64,000 bases of DNA from Roseomonas populi (GTDB lineage: Bacteria > Pseudomonadota > Alphaproteobacteria > Acetobacterales > Acetobacteraceae): positions 248,001 through 312,000 of the forward strand of contig NZ_JANJOU010000003.1 in the NCBI RefSeq assembly GCF_024594815.1, read 5' to 3'. This document shows, one piece after another, positions 49,073 through 55,248 of the stretch (position 1 is the stretch's first letter; the number at the start of each line of letters is the position of its first letter). Made by a program: the position numbers and the translations under genes. Under the pieces are notes generated by a model. The model saw only the letters and a program-made list of their open reading frames with translations, had not been told where the DNA came from and ran no database searches.

Positions 49073-49948
49073 TCAGGCGCGTCTCCGCGAGGGCCAGGTC
49101 GCCAGGAGCATGCTCGCCAGAAGCAAAGCGAAGCCTAACGCGTGCGCGGTGGTCAGTGCCTCGCCGAGGAAGAGGATCGCGCAGGCGGCGGCGGTGGCAG
49201 GCAGGAAGGCGGTGAAGACGCCCGCGATGCCCGCGGGCGCGCGGCGCAGGCCGCCATACCAAAGGAGCAGCGCGAGCACGCTCGCCGTCAGCGCGTGGAA
49301 GAGGAGGAGCGCGAGCAGCACGGGATCGGCCAGCCGCGCGATGGTGCCAGCCTCCGGAAGCCAGGCCGGCAGCACCAGCGCGGCGGAGAAGACCTGCATC
49401 CACAGGGTGGCCGTCAGCAGCGGCAGCGTGCCAGCGGCGCGCTTGGCGAGGAGGACATAGGCGGCTTCCCCGCAGACCGCGAGGAAAACGAGGGCATTGC
49501 CGAGAAGGCTACCGCCCTCCCCCGCCCCGCTGCGGGCGAGAACGATCGCGGCCATTCCTCCGGCCGCCAGCGCCACGGCGGCCCAGCCGCGCTGGGGGAT
49601 GTGTTCCCGCAGCCAGGCCGCGCTGCCCAGCGCCACCACGGCGGGCAGGGTGGCGAGGATGATGCCGCCCTCCAGCGCGGTGGTCAGGCGCAGGCCGGCG
49701 AGGAGGGCGACGTTGTAGAGAACCGTGCCGAACACGGCCTGCAGCAGCAGGTTCGCCAGCGCGCGGCGGCCGGGCAGGACCGCGCCGTCCCGCCACAGCA
49801 CGAGAGGCAGGAGGACGGCGCAGGCGAGGAGGCAGCGCAGGCCGATGATGAGGGAGACGGGCAGAGCGTCGGCCAGCGCCTTCGCCACGGCGACGTTCGC
49901 GCCGACCAGGATCATCGACGCGGCGAGCTGCGCGTGGGCGGCGTTCAA
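49073..49948 (-). CDS. EamA-family drug/metabolite exporter
   Basis: A 291-residue inner-membrane protein with ten hydrophobic segments in two EamA repeats, typical of DMT-superfamily exporters. The second repeat holds LLWYGGLRRAPAGIAGVFTAFLP and the characteristic end GEALTTAHALGFALLLASMLLA. TTG 49948 overlaps the acetyltransferase stop as TTGA, which decides the start. Substrate unknown. Confidence 0.88.
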   Translation of the reverse strand: MNAAHAQLAASMILVGANVAVAKALADALPVSLIIGLRCLLACAVLLPLVLWRDGAVLPGRRALANLLLQAVFGTVLYNVALLAGLRLTTALEGGIILATLPAVVALGSAAWLREHIPQRGWAAVALAAGGMAAIVLARSGAGEGGSLLGNALVFLAVCGEAAYVLLAKRAAGTLPLLTATLWMQVFSAALVLPAWLPEAGTIARLADPVLLALLLFHALTASVLALLLWYGGLRRAPAGIAGVFTAFLPATAAACAILFLGEALTTAHALGFALLLASMLLATWPSRRRA

Positions 49949-51108
49949 TCGGCCTCGCCGTCGCGGCGGTAGGGCGAGAAGGCGTCGAGTTCCGCCATCT
50001 CGGCTTCGATGGCGGCGCGCTCGTGGCGTAGGGAGTCCGCGACCGCGCGGCGCAGGCCGGCGTGCTGGATGAGGTGCGCGGAATAGGTGGGCACGGGGCG
50101 GTAGCCGCGCTGGATCTTGTGCTCGCCCTGCGCGCCGGCCTCCACGCGCTTCAGGCCGTGGGCGATGGCGAAGTCCAGCGCTTGGTAGTAGCAGAGCTCG
50201 AAATGCAGGAAGGGCGCCTCCACCAGGCTGCCCCAGTTGCGGCCGTAGAGCGCGTCCCGGCCCATCAGGTTCAGCGCGCCGGCCACCGGCACGCCGTTCT
50301 TCTCCGCCACCATCAGCACCACGGCATCGCCCATGCGCTCTCCCATCAGGGGCCAGAAGCGCGCGGTGAGATAGGCGCTGCCCCACTTCCGGTCCGTGGT
50401 GCTGCGATAGAACTTGTGGAAGACGCGCCAGATCTCCGGCGTGATCTCGCGGCCGCGCAGGGCGCGGATGGTAAGTCCCGCGGACTGCGCATCGCGCCTC
50501 TCGCGCCGAATCGCCTTGCGCTTGCGGGAGGACAGGGCGGCGAGGAAGTCGTCGAAGCTGGCGTAACCCTCATTCGTCCAGTGGAACTGCATGCCCATGC
50601 GCTGCAGCCACCCGCAGTCGCCGAGCGCCTCCCACTCCTCGCGCGTGCAGAAGGTGACGTGGCAGGAGGAGAGCTTCAGCGCCTCCGTCGCCTGCGCCAG
50701 GGCCTGCCCCAGCGCGGCGTGCGGGACGCCGGTCCCTGGGCGCACCATGAGGCGCGAGCCCGGCACGGGGGAGAAGGGAACGGCGACCTGGAACTTCGGG
50801 TAGTAATCGCCACCCGCCTGCTCGAAGGCGCGGGCCCAGCCATGATCGAAGACGTATTCCCCGTAGGAGTGGCCCTTCGCATAGGCGGGCGCGACAGCGA
50901 CGAGCGCGCCGGTCTCGTCTCTCAGCGCCAGGTGCTGCGGCAGCCAGCCCGTGCGCGGGCCGGTGCAGCCGGATTCCTCCAGGGAGAGGAGGAAGGCGTG
51001 AGAGGTGAAGGGATTTCCGCTCTCGTCGCAGGCATCCCACTCGGCGGCCGGGATGTCGGCGATGCGGGGATGCAGGGAAAGGGTGAGTTCACCGGGCATG
51101 GGGCGCAT
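49945..51108 (-). CDS. DUF482 (FemAB-like GNAT) protein
   Basis: A 387-residue protein of the DUF482 family, a FemAB-related double GNAT fold often labelled peptidoglycan biosynthesis protein without proof. Family segments: EWDACDESGNPFTSHAFLLSLEESGC near 23-48, WLPQHL, AYAKGHSYGEYVFDHGWA, FLAALSSRKRKAIRRER and VEAGAQGEHKIQRGYRPVPTYSAHLI. ATG 51108 or ATG 51099 could start it. First gene of a coupled run with EamA and DUF2075. Confidence 0.88.
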   Translation of the reverse strand: MRPMPGELTLSLHPRIADIPAAEWDACDESGNPFTSHAFLLSLEESGCTGPRTGWLPQHLALRDETGALVAVAPAYAKGHSYGEYVFDHGWARAFEQAGGDYYPKFQVAVPFSPVPGSRLMVRPGTGVPHAALGQALAQATEALKLSSCHVTFCTREEWEALGDCGWLQRMGMQFHWTNEGYASFDDFLAALSSRKRKAIRRERRDAQSAGLTIRALRGREITPEIWRVFHKFYRSTTDRKWGSAYLTARFWPLMGERMGDAVVLMVAEKNGVPVAGALNLMGRDALYGRNWGSLVEAPFLHFELCYYQALDFAIAHGLKRVEAGAQGEHKIQRGYRPVPTYSAHLIQHAGLRRAVADSLRHERAAIEAEMAELDAFSPYRRDGEAD

Positions 51109-51140: not shown

Positions 51141-51515
51141 TCAGCCCTGCGCCACATGGGTGAAGGCGCCGAAGTCGGCGACTGCCTCCACACCGGTGAT
51201 GCGGCCGTCCGACACGCTCCAGACATGCAGGAAGGGAACGCGGCCGGTGCGGCCGGAGGCGTCGCGCGCGTCGTAGGCGCCGCTAGCCAGCAGCCTGCCA
51301 TCGGCGAGCGGCGCGAAGGACTCCACCGCGATGCTCCAGTGCGGGAAATGGCGGCGAAGCGTGGGGAAGAAGGTGCCCTCCACCTCGGCGCGGCCGTGCC
51401 AGTCCGTGCGCGGCACGGGGTAGCCGGGGGAGACGCGCCAGGACACGTCCTCGGCGAGAAGCGCGTGGTCGCCGCTCTCCATCCAGCGGCGGATCAGGGC
51501 CTCTTCCGGTGTCAC
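51141..51515 (-). CDS. SnoaL/NTF2-like protein
   Basis: A 124-residue alpha+beta barrel of the SnoaL-like NTF2 superfamily, with TPEEALIRRWMESGDHALLAEDVSWRV at the start and VPFLHVWSVSDGRITGVEAVAD near the end. Such proteins act as small isomerases, hydrolases or binding proteins; no specific role is visible. ATGA overlap with ridA (51512-51515) shows cotranslation. Confidence 0.82.
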   Translation of the reverse strand: MTPEEALIRRWMESGDHALLAEDVSWRVSPGYPVPRTDWHGRAEVEGTFFPTLRRHFPHWSIAVESFAPLADGRLLASGAYDARDASGRTGRVPFLHVWSVSDGRITGVEAVADFGAFTHVAQG

Positions 51516-51982
51516 GCGATCTCGAACACGGCCTCCACCTCCACCGCCGCGTCGCCGGGCAGGGAGGGGACGCCGATGGTGGTGCGGGCGTGGCGGCCGA
51601 GGTCGTCAAAGACGGCCACCGCCATGTCTGAGGCGCCGTTCATCACCTGGGCGTGCTGGGTGAACTCCGGCACGGCGGCAATGAAACCGCCGAGCCGCAC
51701 CACGCGCGAGATGCGGTCCAGGCTGCCGAGCGCGGCATGGGCCTGGGCCAGGACGTTGATGAAGCAGAGCTGCGCGGCCTGCTGGCCGATCTCCACCTGC
51801 ACGGTGGCGCCGAGCTTGCCGGTATAGGCGATCTTGCCGTCCCGCATCGGCACCTGGCCGGAGACGAAGAGGAGGTCTCCGGTGATGACGGCCGGGACGT
51901 AGTTGGCGATGGGCTTGGCGGCCTCCGGCAGGGAGACGCCGAGTTCCGCCAGGCGGGCGAGGATGCGGTCCGCGGAGGCCAT
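51512..51982 (-). CDS. RidA-family protein (YjgH/TdcF-like subgroup)
   Basis: A 156-residue member of the RidA (YjgF/YER057c) superfamily, which hydrolyses reactive enamine/imine intermediates. The size and the segments VPAVITGDLLFVSGQVPMRDGK, NVLAQAHAALGSLDRI and TTIGVPSLPGDAAVEVEAVFEI mark the longer subgroup. The Arg that binds the carboxylate in canonical RidA is not evident in the RTTIGV position with certainty. Four bases after the upstream NrdJ-like gene. Confidence 0.9.
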   Translation of the reverse strand: MASADRILARLAELGVSLPEAAKPIANYVPAVITGDLLFVSGQVPMRDGKIAYTGKLGATVQVEIGQQAAQLCFINVLAQAHAALGSLDRISRVVRLGGFIAAVPEFTQHAQVMNGASDMAVAVFDDLGRHARTTIGVPSLPGDAAVEVEAVFEIA

Positions 51983-51986
51983 CGGT

Positions 51987-53516
51987 TCAGCCCACCAGCT
52001 TCAGGGCGCGGCGGCGCGCGGCGGGCGCCGGGGCGGAGGGAAGGTCCGGCAGCAAGGGGAGCTGCTGGGCGGCGGTGCCCACGCCATCCGCGCCGCACTC
52101 CTCCTCGGTGGGGTCAGGCAGGACCCGGCCGCCGAGATGGTCCAGCGCCAGGCGGCGGAAGGCCCAGTCCAGCACGGAGGAGGCGCGGTGGATGGCCGGA
52201 TCGCCCTCCACCACCCCGGCCGGGCCGAAGCGGGTATAGGCGAAGGCCGTCACGTACTCGTCCAGGCTCACGCCGGCGGCGAGGCCGACCGTCACGGAGT
52301 GGCAGAGCGCATCCACCATGGCGCGGAAGGCGGCGCCGTCCTTGGCGAGGGAGAGGGAGATCTCCTCCAGCCCCGCCGCATTCTCCATGGTGCGGAGAGT
52401 GACGCGATGGCCACCGATCGTGACCTTCCAGACGGCGCCGCGGCCGTGGTGGCCGGGGGCCGGCAGGGCGCGGGGCTTCGGCGCGGGGCGTGGGGCGGCG
52501 GGCTGGGCGGCCACGGCCGGGGCAGCGGCGTGCAGCCAGGGGCGCAGGGCGGCCTCCATCGCGGCGCGGGCATCCGGGCCGCGCGGGGCGAGGAGGCGAG
52601 CGGCTTCCGGCCCGGCGCGCAGGGCGGCGGCGGTGGGAACCTCCGCCACGCCGCCATCGGGGGTGGAGACGAGGCGGGTGGAAGCGGCGGCGGGAGCGAA
52701 CCCGCCGGTCTCCGCGCCGAGCATCGCCTCCACCGCATCGGGCGGGGTGAGGGCGAAGACGGCGGCATGGCGCAGGCCGGGGGCGCCGGCGGCGGCGTCC
52801 AGCGCGGCGCGCGCGGCCTCGGCGAGGCCGGGGACCGGGGTGGACTCGGGAGGCGCGGGCCAGATCAGGGCCACGGGCTCGCGCGCGCCGAGGTTCTCGG
52901 CCAGGTCGCCGGACGCGGCCTCGGCCACGCCGCGGGTCAGGGCAGCGATGGCGGCGGCGACCGAGCGCGCCTCCGCGGATTCGTAGTCCAGGTGCAGGCC
53001 GGCGAGCAGGCCGGCGAGGTCGGCGAAGCCGAGTCGCAGGCGTGTGGCCTTCGCGCCGCCCAGGATTTCGAGGGCCGTCACACCCAGGCGCACGGCGGCG
53101 GCGTAGCCCGCGGAATCGAAGCCCTCATCGTCCAGGAAGGCCGGCAGGTTCAGCACGAAGCGGGGCTCGGCCTTGGCGTCGGCGGTCCAGGTGCCGGCGC
53201 CGGGCGCGGCACGGCGGGCGAGGAGGAGGGCGCGCATGCCCGCGGCGAAGCGGGCCGCCGCGCCCTCGTCCACCAGAACGCCGAGCTTGCGGCCGCGGGC
53301 GGCGGCGCGGCGGATCCAGCCCTCGGCCAGGCGCGGCAGGGCAACGGGGCCGTCCCCCGGGGCGAGGGCCGCGATCGCTTCGGCGGCGGTGTCGTCCCAG
53401 CCGGCGGGCAGGGCCACAGCACGCGGCTCGGCATCGGGATCGGCGGCGGCGCGCGTGCGGCGCAGCGCGACCTCTTCCCACACCGTGTCGCGGATCGTGC
53501 CGTCGGCCTTCGTCAT
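51987..53516 (-). CDS. NrdJ-derived protein with TSCPD-type C-terminal domain, no catalytic cysteines
   Basis: A 509-residue protein. The C-terminal domain (about 380-480) matches that of B12-dependent ribonucleotide reductase NrdJ: GHRVTLRTMENAAGLEEI, AFRAMVDALC, VSLDEYVTAFAYTRFGPAG and SSVLDWAFRRLALDHLGG. A middle segment (about 165-260) also recalls NrdJ: NLPAFLDDEGFD, AAVRLGVTALEIL and LRLGFADLAGLL. I see only two cysteines, no NPCSE-type radical site and no C-terminal CxxC, so it is unlikely to reduce nucleotides. The true nrdJ is not in the window. A regulatory or DNA/nucleotide-binding role is possible. Confidence 0.8.
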   Translation of the reverse strand: MTKADGTIRDTVWEEVALRRTRAAADPDAEPRAVALPAGWDDTAAEAIAALAPGDGPVALPRLAEGWIRRAAARGRKLGVLVDEGAAARFAAGMRALLLARRAAPGAGTWTADAKAEPRFVLNLPAFLDDEGFDSAGYAAAVRLGVTALEILGGAKATRLRLGFADLAGLLAGLHLDYESAEARSVAAAIAALTRGVAEAASGDLAENLGAREPVALIWPAPPESTPVPGLAEAARAALDAAAGAPGLRHAAVFALTPPDAVEAMLGAETGGFAPAAASTRLVSTPDGGVAEVPTAAALRAGPEAARLLAPRGPDARAAMEAALRPWLHAAAPAVAAQPAAPRPAPKPRALPAPGHHGRGAVWKVTIGGHRVTLRTMENAAGLEEISLSLAKDGAAFRAMVDALCHSVTVGLAAGVSLDEYVTAFAYTRFGPAGVVEGDPAIHRASSVLDWAFRRLALDHLGGRVLPDPTEEECGADGVGTAAQQLPLLPDLPSAPAPAARRRALKLVG

Positions 53517-53683
53517 GCTGCGGACAATAGGCGCCCCCGGGGCGGGGGTGAAGGTGCATGTCGTGGGTCGTTCGCCTTCCCGCCACAAGATCAGGTGTTC
53601 CGCCCCCCGGCTTTCACGCAGCGCAAGGCCGTGCCATATGAACCGCACAGTTCAACCCGCCCGCAATGGCAGGAGTCCTTTCC

Positions 53684-54040
53684 ATGTCCGCCTTGCAGCG
53701 CTGGCTCTCCGGCCTCTCCGGCCGCAGGATCGGCACCGATTCCGCCGGCAACGTCTATTTCGAGAGCCGGGGCGATTACCTCGGCTACGGCCGCAAGCGC
53801 CGCTGGGTGGTCTATTCCGGGCCGGCCGAGGCGACGCTGGTGCCGCCGGAGTGGCACGGCTGGCTGCACCACACGATTCCCGCCCCGATCGAGAACCCGC
53901 GCCCCCTGGCCTGGCAGAAGCCGCACCAGCCGAACCTGACGGGCACCTCACAGGCCTGGAGCCCCACGCCGCGGGGCCAGAAGAGCAATCACCGGCCGGT
54001 GACGGCGGGGGACTACGAGGCCTGGACGCCGGGCTCCTGA
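53684..54040 (+). CDS. NADH:ubiquinone oxidoreductase subunit NDUFA12
   Basis: An accessory subunit of complex I shared by mitochondria and alphaproteobacteria, 118 residues. Conserved segments: RIGTDSAGNVYFES, RRWVVYSGPAEATLVPPEWHGWLHH and the WQKPHQPNLTGT region. ATG 53684 has AGGAG nine bases upstream and is preferred over ATG 53666. First gene of the operon with mlaD and DUF2155; 28 bases before mlaD. Confidence 0.94.
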   Translation: MSALQRWLSGLSGRRIGTDSAGNVYFESRGDYLGYGRKRRWVVYSGPAEATLVPPEWHGWLHHTIPAPIENPRPLAWQKPHQPNLTGTSQAWSPTPRGQKSNHRPVTAGDYEAWTPGS

Positions 54041-54068
54041 TGGCGCGCCCTGGCCAGGGAGAGTGCGC

Positions 54069-54584
54069 GTGAAGGGCCGGAGCCTTGCGGAGGTCGCCGC
54101 CGGCGCAGTGGTGCTGCTCGTCGCCATCGTCTTCCTTGTTTATGCGGTGACGAATTCGGGTCGTGCCAGCGCCGGCAGCGGGCTTGTGCTGACGGCCCGC
54201 TTCGACCGGATCGACGGGCTGGCGCCCGGCGCCGACGTGCGGATCGCCGGCGTGAAGGTGGGCAGCGTGACCGGCCAGCGGATCGATCCGCAGACCTTCC
54301 TCGCGGTGCTGACGCTGGACGTGGACTCCTCGCTGAAGGTGCCGGACGACAGCTCGGCGGAGATCACCTCCGAGGGGCTGCTGGGCGGCAAGTACGTCGC
54401 GCTCGTCCCGGGCGGCAGCGACCGGGACCTGGCGAGCGGGGGGGAGATCAAGATCACCCAGTCCTCCGTCAGCCTGGAGAGCCTGCTGGGCAAGTTCATC
54501 TTCTCCATGACCCAGGGGGGGAACCAGGGCGGCGGGAACGCCGAGGGACGCGCGGGCGGTCAGGGTGCGGAGGCGGCGCGGTGA
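54069..54584 (+). CDS. mlaD: MCE-domain protein MlaD
   Basis: A 171-residue substrate-binding subunit of the Mla phospholipid transport system. One N-terminal membrane helix (about 8-28) is followed by an MCE domain (about 38-115: LTARFDRIDGLAPGADVRIAGVKVG and ITSEGLLGGKYVAL). A Gly/Asn-rich tail ends it. GGGAGAG lies before GTG 54069; GTG 54063 is two codons upstream. mlaE and mlaF are not adjacent. The stop overlaps the next start (GTGA). Confidence 0.9.
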   Translation: MKGRSLAEVAAGAVVLLVAIVFLVYAVTNSGRASAGSGLVLTARFDRIDGLAPGADVRIAGVKVGSVTGQRIDPQTFLAVLTLDVDSSLKVPDDSSAEITSEGLLGGKYVALVPGGSDRDLASGGEIKITQSSVSLESLLGKFIFSMTQGGNQGGGNAEGRAGGQGAEAAR

Positions 54585-54829
54585 CAGCCGCGGGCACATC
54601 CCCCCTCGATGCGCCGGAGATCTGGCCCGGGGCGGATGGCCAGCCCCTCTCCTGCCGGGAGAAGCTCCGCGTGCTCGGGGAGAACCATGAGGAGGTCGTG
54701 CAGGTGCTGCGCGACGCCTTTGAGGACGCGGTGCTGATGGGCGTGGACGAGACGGCGATGCGGCGGATGCTGACGGAGATGGTGGCGGCCCTGCCGAGCC
54801 CGAAGCGCCCGGCCGGGGGCGCCGCGTGA
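54581..54829 (+). CDS. Small hypothetical protein, 82 aa
   Basis: An 82-residue acidic, mainly helical protein (EKLRVLGENHEEVVQVLRDAFEDAVLMGVDETAMRRMLTEMV). It has no signal peptide or known motif, and I do not recognise a family. Its reality rests on GTGA overlaps at both ends (54581-54584 with mlaD, 54826-54829 with the next gene), which make it a coupled member of the operon. Confidence 0.75.
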   Translation: MTAAGTSPLDAPEIWPGADGQPLSCREKLRVLGENHEEVVQVLRDAFEDAVLMGVDETAMRRMLTEMVAALPSPKRPAGGAA

Positions 54830-55248
54830 CGCGGCCCTCGCTGGCGCTCCCAGCTCTGCTCCTCGCACTGGCGGGGCCGGCGCTGGGGCAGGGCGTGCCG
54901 GGCACGAACTCGCAGGGCTCCGACCAGGGGCCGCCCGCCGAGGCGGGCTGGCTGCCCAAGCGGGTGGCGCAACTGCAGGCGCTGGACAAGGTGACGGCGC
55001 GGATCACCGTGCTGGACGCGAACGTGAACCAGGCCGTGACCTTCGGCACCCTCTCCATCACCGTGCGCGCCTGCAACGCCCGCCCGCCGGACGAGGTGCC
55101 GGACGCCGCGGCCTTCATCGAGGTGCGGGACAGCACGGCGCAGCCCAGCGCCCCACCGGCCTTCCGGGGCTGGATGCTCGCCAACGCCCCCGCGGCGCAC
55201 ATGCTGGAGCACCCGGTCTACGACCTCCGAATCCTGGATTGCCGGTGA
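54826..55248 (+). CDS. DUF2155 exported protein
   Basis: A 140-residue periplasmic protein with a Sec signal (1-21, ALPALLLALAGPALG). The DUF2155 domain covers about 50-140: ALDKVTARITVLDANVNQAVTFGTLSITVRAC, FIEVRD, FRGWMLANAPAAHMLEHPVYDLRILDC. The two cysteines may pair. Function unknown, but the gene sits beside the complex I NDUFA12 gene across alphaproteobacteria. Coupled to its neighbours on both sides by GTGA. Confidence 0.9.
   Translation: MTRPSLALPALLLALAGPALGQGVPGTNSQGSDQGPPAEAGWLPKRVAQLQALDKVTARITVLDANVNQAVTFGTLSITVRACNARPPDEVPDAAAFIEVRDSTAQPSAPPAFRGWMLANAPAAHMLEHPVYDLRILDCR

Follow-up and report, generated by a model that had tools for sequence, protein, structure and literature searches.

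Pseudoenzymes are a known kind of protein, and among the ribonucleotide reductases (RNRs) the R1 homologues of herpesviruses have lost catalysis and taken non-catalytic roles. The first half-barrel of RNRs carries the allosteric specificity site. According to the available part of a published description (PMC9669993), the RNR barrel consists of two five-stranded halves linked by a finger loop, and IscU-like domains are present in the C-termini of long class II enzymes, for which that text suggests oligomerisation and notes that a role had not been reported. For one actinobacterial class II enzyme NrdJ, experiments in the accessible part of PMC5704485 show that nucleotides induce higher oligomers through the C-terminal region, whose cysteines also carry electrons. 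The subject of this study is a 64,000-nucleotide stretch of DNA from Roseomonas populi (contig NZ_JANJOU010000003.1, positions 248,001 to 312,000), called the window below, and in particular the 509-amino-acid (aa) protein P0001 encoded on it, which, judged by its sequence, is by descent a shrunken class II reductase NrdJ. The bacterial family of the window was named Acetobacteraceae via its Roseomonas and Pararoseomonas relatives.

Descent of P0001 from NrdJ

The original prediction had regarded P0001 as a pseudoenzyme derived from the B12-dependent reductase NrdJ. This origin was borne out by a profile-profile alignment with hhalign, in which residues 121-486 of P0001 aligned to residues 491-1108 of NrdJ at an E-value of 2e-56, ruling out chance similarity, and by the NCBIfam NrdJ model PRK07562, which matched at an E-value of 1.1e-37 (129 bits, cut-off 1737). 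The relation thus reaches well beyond the C-terminal domain, and both peptides quoted in the prediction lie inside the aligned stretch. The Pfam TSCPD domain PF12637 was matched by residues 363-457 with 27.3 bits, above the gathering cut-off of 22.8, although the letters T-S-C-P-D themselves are absent and the site reads ASSVLD. The barrel family PF02867 was matched by residues 123-212 with 22.8 bits, slightly below the cut-off of 23.9; this match spans profile positions 233-336 of 523, and hence less than a complete ten-stranded barrel. The closest solved structure is that of the Rhodobacter sphaeroides NrdJ (7b9p), over residues 122-211.

A family alignment was prepared from 87 members, reduced to 76 by removing identical copies and fragments shorter than 400 aa, together with seven true NrdJs. 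Its ungapped blocks place residues 7-113 of P0001 on NrdJ 9-159, residues 121-341 on 491-889 and residues 356-481 on 977-1103. The similarity of the N-terminal 118 residues to the N-domain of NrdJ is weak (hhalign E 0.045, probability 1.2%), and homology of this part, based on collinearity, is possible. The residues W13, P37, W40, W67, P105 and W110 are conserved in at least 95% of the 76 members.

Loss of the active site

The NrdJ region of about 160-490, which comprises the catalytic cysteines and the finger loop, is missing from P0001 directly upstream of the half-barrel in the alignment. With respect to the barrel architecture given in the available text of PMC9669993, the missing region corresponds to the first half-barrel and the finger loop. 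The columns of C199, N474, C476, E478 and C487 are gapped in all 76 family members, and none of these members carries a cysteine in the four zinc-ribbon columns. Since P0001 contains no CxxC motif, its two cysteines being residues 405 and 474, the predicted loss of both the radical-site and the CxxC cysteines was confirmed. Additionally, the N-terminal class II domain PF08471 had no match in its own genome. The catalytic motif, PF08471, the full barrel and the zinc ribbon are all absent, and P0001 would accordingly not be expected to be a class II reductase enzyme. Nucleotide binding, which had been proposed as one possible role, appears unlikely from the alignment, as the first half-barrel is gone together with much of the active site.

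The same pattern was found in a set of 94 stripped NrdJ derivatives, which are referred to here as gutted proteins: the motif NPCxE was present in none of them, versus all seven true NrdJs. A loose PTG expression matched 11 of the 94, and a TAC-type expression matched three (L164, L168 and L022), of which the one in L168 was inspected.

The gutted gene at the nrdJ slot

The genomic context was compared between 35 gutted loci and 27 true loci, the latter being defined by the presence of both NPCxE and HACF. A gene for an NDUFA12-like protein, always in divergent orientation, adjoins 28 of the 35 gutted loci and 20 of the 27 true nrdJ loci. Six of the seven gutted loci without this neighbour keep genes for MlaD- and DUF2155-like proteins, and the seventh (G514) keeps those for RidA and the 387-aa protein GNAT387. 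Among the seven true loci without it, one (L191) is cut by the contig end and another is a second-locus NrdJ gene of the genome G283. Given this shared slot, the gutted gene most plausibly represents the native nrdJ, modified in place.

Retention and selection in Acetobacteraceae

The order was sampled with 299 genomes, all of them from the window's own family, and 293 contained a match to P0001. Among 43 genomes viewed closely, most contain an open reading frame (ORF) that spans about 500-640 aa and matches TSCPD. The five genomes of the genera g12 and g40 (loci L108-L111 among them) match in the barrel part only, with the half-barrel kept. The ratio of non-synonymous to synonymous substitution rates (dN/dS) had a median of 0.177 (range 0.091-0.265) in 36 pairs of nine Roseomonas-group orthologues. 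By segment, the median was lowest in the tail (0.116) and TSCPD (0.129), followed by the half-barrel (0.173), the N-terminal part (0.237) and the linker (0.244).

These data bear directly on the view that P0001 is a slowly decaying relic devoid of function. Its fast divergence and the lineage-specific loss of different parts would fit such a relic. However, open frames of about 450-640 aa are present in nearly all genera examined, including those with 2 Mb genomes, the dN/dS median is below 0.25 in every segment, and highly conserved positions occur in the N-terminus, the half-barrel and TSCPD. A relic is thus extremely improbable, and a neutral pseudogene is disfavoured by the dN/dS values and the retention in 293 of 299 genomes. 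P0001 is kept as a protein, and it is very likely that it was derived in place, is under selection and is non-catalytic. The original prediction was confirmed in its observation but had treated P0001 as a single case, whereas gutting of this locus extends through the family and has apparently recurred.

Ribonucleotide reductases serving the cell

The genome of the window encodes a class I NrdA (PRK09102, 1028 bits, cut-off 620) with NrdB adjoining. This NrdA is the only other PF02867 protein of the genome, and searches with the PF02867 and PF08471 profiles yielded no NrdJ. Among the 299 genomes of the family, PF08471 was detected in one (G283), at a locus different from that of the gutted gene; the same profile had no match in 14 control genomes, yet matched 247 of the 385 class genomes. 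Consequently, the suggestion that P0001 regulates NrdJ was not upheld for this genome. NrdB was present in 297 of the 299 genomes, the exceptions being G280 and G283. The only PF02867 reductase of G283 is a full NrdJ above the cut-off, whose locus has no NDUFA12 block; the contig that carries it also bears the gutted gene, still in its native position. This genome (L106 and L107), with the full NrdJ off the slot and the gutted copy in the native slot, represents a natural replacement experiment. As its only PF02867 reductase, G280 (L176) has a class II enzyme of 759 aa that carries NPCGE, and the gutted gene is present as well. Because both genomes keep the gutted protein in the absence of NrdB and use class II barrel reductases, its retention appears to be independent of class I, and no single reductase class would be the required partner; class I NrdAB in this role is disfavoured.

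These findings also limit the idea that P0001 is a regulatory or chaperone subunit of the cell's reductase, whose activity it would tune by joining NrdA or NrdJ in mixed oligomers. P0001 does descend from a reductase subunit, the zinc ribbon is retained in some related copies (7 of 94), and a subunit with a dead site and an intact C-terminus could pass electrons to the active site of its neighbour, in keeping with the accessible part of PMC5704485. On the other hand, P0001 and its family are devoid of the zinc ribbon, a class II remnant would have to recognise NrdA, and no single partner fits a protein that is kept alongside class I, a full NrdJ alone or a short class II enzyme alone. A subunit of this kind is therefore considered rather unlikely.

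Gutted NrdJs in other lineages

In the 385 genomes of the class, TSCPD was detected in 260 and PF08471 in 247, and 22 contained TSCPD without PF08471. Gutted shapes were taken from 23 chosen genomes of the class and then from their loci. Among the 22, those not counted as gutted were G360 and G551, in which the TSCPD and barrel matches fall into the same short frame (756 and 788 aa; that of G551 with NPCGE), G572 and G424 with TSCPD matches outside the rows listed, G664 and G396 with an NrdJ running off the contig end, and G486 and G657 with stand-alone ORFs of 104-136 aa. Such stand-alone ORFs at L076 and L077 (f73) scored highest for TSCPD among the class genomes. PF08471 occurred without a TSCPD match in G361, G391, G412, G418, G489, G515, G521, G606 and G666, and those of G412 and G418 are gutted NrdJs. 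A further TSCPD protein, about 790 aa long, occurs in many Alphaproteobacteria (L079, L081 and similar loci); the two that were read are short class II reductases with NPCGE.

The gutted NrdJs of these lineages differ in size and content. The f40 protein comprises 1190 aa with TSCPD and without catalytic motif, the f104 protein 996 aa with one TAC-type motif remaining, and the f121 and f115 proteins 963 and 730 aa, the last three without a TSCPD match. Proteins of 801-938 aa with TSCPD were found in f161, f151 and the Caulobacter type, and one of 663 aa in f100. The shortest forms, with 272-278 aa in f9 and f98 (L159-L163), consist of TSCPD with short flanks at the nrdJ slot; the f9 form keeps the CxxC...CxxC tail, whereas the f98 form does not. 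The seven zinc-ribbon proteins among the 94 are those of the Caulobacter type, f9 and f151. With the exception of the f151 copy, the gutted NrdJs of these other lineages adjoin NDUFA12. The f9 and f98 genomes measure 1.2-1.4 Mb, with a GC content of 27-30% in five 14-kb stretches and a rhodopsin in seven of seven, and are presumably SAR11-like. Listed NrdJ-type matches in G691, G755 and G789 cross a stop codon, which may be a natural end or real decay.

The lineage f63 probably represents Caulobacteraceae, since the locus L044 of a Caulobacter metagenome-assembled genome falls among its rows in the tree. None of the 119 genomes of the family of G650, which holds this Caulobacter locus in the tree, reached the NrdJ cut-off, and 107 (counted by eye) matched PRK07562 at an E-value of 1.7e-57 or better; among the matches listed, those bearing TSCPD start at profile position 459 at the earliest. 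G650 showed a weak extra PRK07562 match at 314-372, and the BLAST alignment of L044 starts at NrdJ 315, so that Caulobacter-type proteins seem to keep slightly more of NrdJ than P0001. The protein at L044, with 938 aa and a zinc ribbon, is unlike P0001 in these respects. The Caulobacter crescentus protein CCNA_01966 is called NrdJ in PMC6538847 and a B12-dependent RNR in PMC5869019, in the parts of both papers that are available. It is probably a Caulobacter-type gutted protein, because the Caulobacter vibrioides control genome matches TSCPD but PRK07562 only below the cut-off; PF08471 had no match there, the probe being silent in all 14 controls.

Number of conversions

A neighbour tree was calculated from concatenated AccC, Aat, NDUFA12, MlaD and DUF2155 sequences of 47 loci (28 gutted, 19 true), after 15 of 62 loci had been dropped for too little flank. 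On this tree the full or gutted state requires eight changes (bootstrap range 6-8), at least three of which are forced by well-supported branches, and a topology with one origin was obtained in none of 200 bootstrap trees; support is poor for 16 of its 44 inner branches, and the majority of Acetobacteraceae rows cover only about 35% of the columns. A tree of the TSCPD domain (43 rows, 136 columns) requires five changes. The counts by themselves cannot separate gain from loss, although loss of a complete NrdJ is more likely than its return to the same slot. Gutting of nrdJ looks recurrent from the neighbour tree.

Predicted fold and proposed role

The AlphaFold2 model of the whole protein was poor, with a predicted local distance difference test (pLDDT) score of 51.6. 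A search of the PDB with this model gave RNRs first, with two matches below an E-value of 0.001 and a high root-mean-square deviation, and the 50 hits shown were all RNRs. A model of the TSCPD domain, built for the Microvirga NrdJ and including P0001 in its alignment, reached a pLDDT of 76.5 and resembles SufU, IscU, SufE and a lipoyltransferase domain with middling Z-scores of 5-7 (about 6 to SufU and IscU), in line with the IscU-like domains of PMC9669993. The TSCPD region of P0001 aligns with the IscU-like C-terminal domain of class II RNRs, and its predicted fold would be IscU/SufU-like.

Such a fold might point to a function in iron-sulfur or sulfur transfer, assisting iron-sulfur enzymes such as complex I, for which the resemblance to IscU, SufU and SufE and the divergent NDUFA12 neighbour could be quoted. 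Scaffolds of the IscU/SufU type carry three cluster-ligand cysteines. P0001 has Cys405 and Cys474 in total, only the former in the Pfam-matched part and the latter just after it, and the true NrdJ L043 has no cysteine in its TSCPD stretch. As the neighbourhood is common to true nrdJ genes, it says little about a new function, and a role in cluster assembly is very improbable.

P0001 has lost the C-terminal cysteines and kept the IscU-like part; electron delivery would therefore be out, and assembly would remain. It is conceivable, at somewhat less than even odds, that P0001 serves as an oligomerising, protein-binding scaffold or adaptor via this domain. The following course of events would be consistent with such a role. 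Another ribonucleotide reductase would have taken over the synthesis of deoxyribonucleoside triphosphates (dNTPs) from the native alphaproteobacterial nrdJ. Conversion of nrdJ in place would have eliminated the zinc ribbon and the catalytic cysteines as well as the first half-barrel and the finger loop, leaving the second half-barrel, the IscU-like TSCPD domain and, probably, a short N-terminal helical part. A scaffold job that had also been done by the ancestral NrdJ would have been retained once catalysis was redundant. Taken as a whole, the in-place conversion to a non-catalytic scaffold that continues a second role of NrdJ is the best explanation, with a probability of roughly 60%.

Several observations weigh against this explanation. 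The fold match of TSCPD is weak, with no Foldseek hit under an E-value of 0.001 and all Z-scores below 8. No TSCPD match was found in g12, g40, f104, f115 and f121, in which mainly barrel parts are kept, so that the IscU-like domain cannot be the sole conserved function. The active-site loss is not complete everywhere, as the single TAC-type motif of L168 (f104) occupies the position of the third catalytic cysteine in an NrdJ-like stretch. The TSCPD tree did not reject a single clade of gutted proteins (approximately unbiased test, p 0.093; 0.102 without f100 and P0001). Six of the 299 family genomes have no P0001 match (G003, G019, G065, G073, G112 and G266), and the protein evolves fast, with 28-44% identity to the copies in 20 divergent loci where P0001 is the best match, compared with 59-68% for RidA. 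Moreover, the survey of reductases covered classes I and II, and class III enzymes were not searched.

Apparently repeated gutting with retention suggests that NrdJ had a second job besides dNTP synthesis. Tentatively, the alphaproteobacterial NrdJ may be a two-job protein with an RNR-independent role in the half-barrel and the IscU-like domain that cells can hardly do without. Lineages that shifted dNTP synthesis to another reductase would then have stripped the gene in place, on several independent occasions, instead of deleting it; in SAR11-like bacteria about 275 aa would be left. If this is true, the Caulobacter crescentus 'NrdJ' is no reductase at all. Since gutted proteins separate the IscU-like domain from catalysis, the role of this domain becomes approachable by gene deletion. 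In Acetobacteraceae, Caulobacteraceae and SAR11-like bacteria, annotations as 'B12-dependent ribonucleotide reductase' may be incorrect, as may predictions of a B12 requirement derived from them.

Locus and gene neighbourhood

The features of the locus are compiled in Table 1. P0001 is encoded by a single minus-strand frame with an ATG at 53516 and a stop at 51987. A longer GTG start is located at 53648, and longer frames exist; at the ATG, eight of eight close relatives encode MTK or MTR. The gene order around P0001 is identical in these eight relatives. The labels GNAT387 and NDUFA12-, MlaD- and DUF2155-like are our presumed names for the neighbours.

Table 1. Coordinates of P0001, its segments and the neighbouring genes in the window
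Feature	Position	Strand	Basis or remark
NrdJ-derived, very likely non-catalytic protein P0001, 509 aa	51987..53516	-	ORF list, Pfam, NCBIfam, hhalign
P0001 residues 1-118, possible remnant of NrdJ N-terminal helical domain (NrdJ 9-159)	53163..53516	-	weak, collinear
P0001 residues 121-341, second half of RNR barrel (NrdJ 491-889, gapped)	52494..53156	-	alignment, hhalign
P0001 residues 356-481, TSCPD / IscU-like domain (NrdJ 977-1103)	52074..52451	-	PF12637, hhalign blocks
P0001 residues 482-509, short tail replacing NrdJ zinc ribbon	51990..52073	-	no CxxC
RidA-like protein	51512..51982	-	4 bp downstream of P0001; name from the original prediction, no family scan made
SnoaL-like protein	51141..51515	-	between RidA and GNAT387; name from the original prediction
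387-aa GNAT/FemAB-like protein (GNAT387)	49945..51108	-	conserved downstream neighbour; presumed name
NDUFA12-like protein	53666..54040	+	divergent neighbour, marker of nrdJ slot; presumed name
MlaD-like protein	54063..54584	+	same conserved block as NDUFA12; presumed name
DUF2155-like protein	54826..55248	+	same conserved block as NDUFA12 and MlaD; presumed name

The RidA-like gene has matches at many related loci. Because 4 of the 27 true nrdJ loci also have RidA nearby, its adjacency to P0001 is probably ancestral. The SnoaL-like gene is present in all eight close relatives, with no match in 42 more distant loci, and looks like an insertion limited to the Roseomonas group. Another possibility is a new enzyme built on the half-barrel and the IscU-like domain, perhaps linked to RidA, to which the tight tandem arrangement (4 bp) and the polar residues R184, E269, E378, E385, D450 and R454, each conserved in at least 88% of the 76 family members, would be favourable. 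Half a barrel is, however, an unlikely frame for an active site, five of the six polar residues equal the NrdJ residue at that position and may be structural, P0001 holds two cysteines in all, and the occurrence of RidA near true nrdJ genes applies here as well. This possibility is improbable.

Comparison with known systems

A bacterial RNR that was gutted at its own locus, is under selection throughout a family and was apparently converted more than once was not found described in the literature searched, which left most subscription journals outside. The alphaproteobacterial NrdJ (PRK07562, about 1220 aa) and P0001 share the second half-barrel, the TSCPD/IscU-like domain and the NDUFA12 slot, whereas P0001 is devoid of the first half-barrel, the finger loop, the catalytic cysteines and the zinc ribbon. 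The 'ribonucleotide reductase-like protein' PRK06948 (NF005401) matched residues 157-288 of P0001 weakly (E 2.2e-5), with 23.3 bits against a cut-off of 906; the short class II fragments of G280 and G375 scored 459 and 471. In comparison with the IscU-like domain of RNRs in the available part of PMC9669993, which does not mention such remnants, P0001 is a protein from which no reductase activity is expected. The herpesvirus R1 homologues are viral and belong to class I, whereas P0001 is a bacterial class II derivative that lacks a half-barrel and apparently goes back to one of several conversions at one locus.

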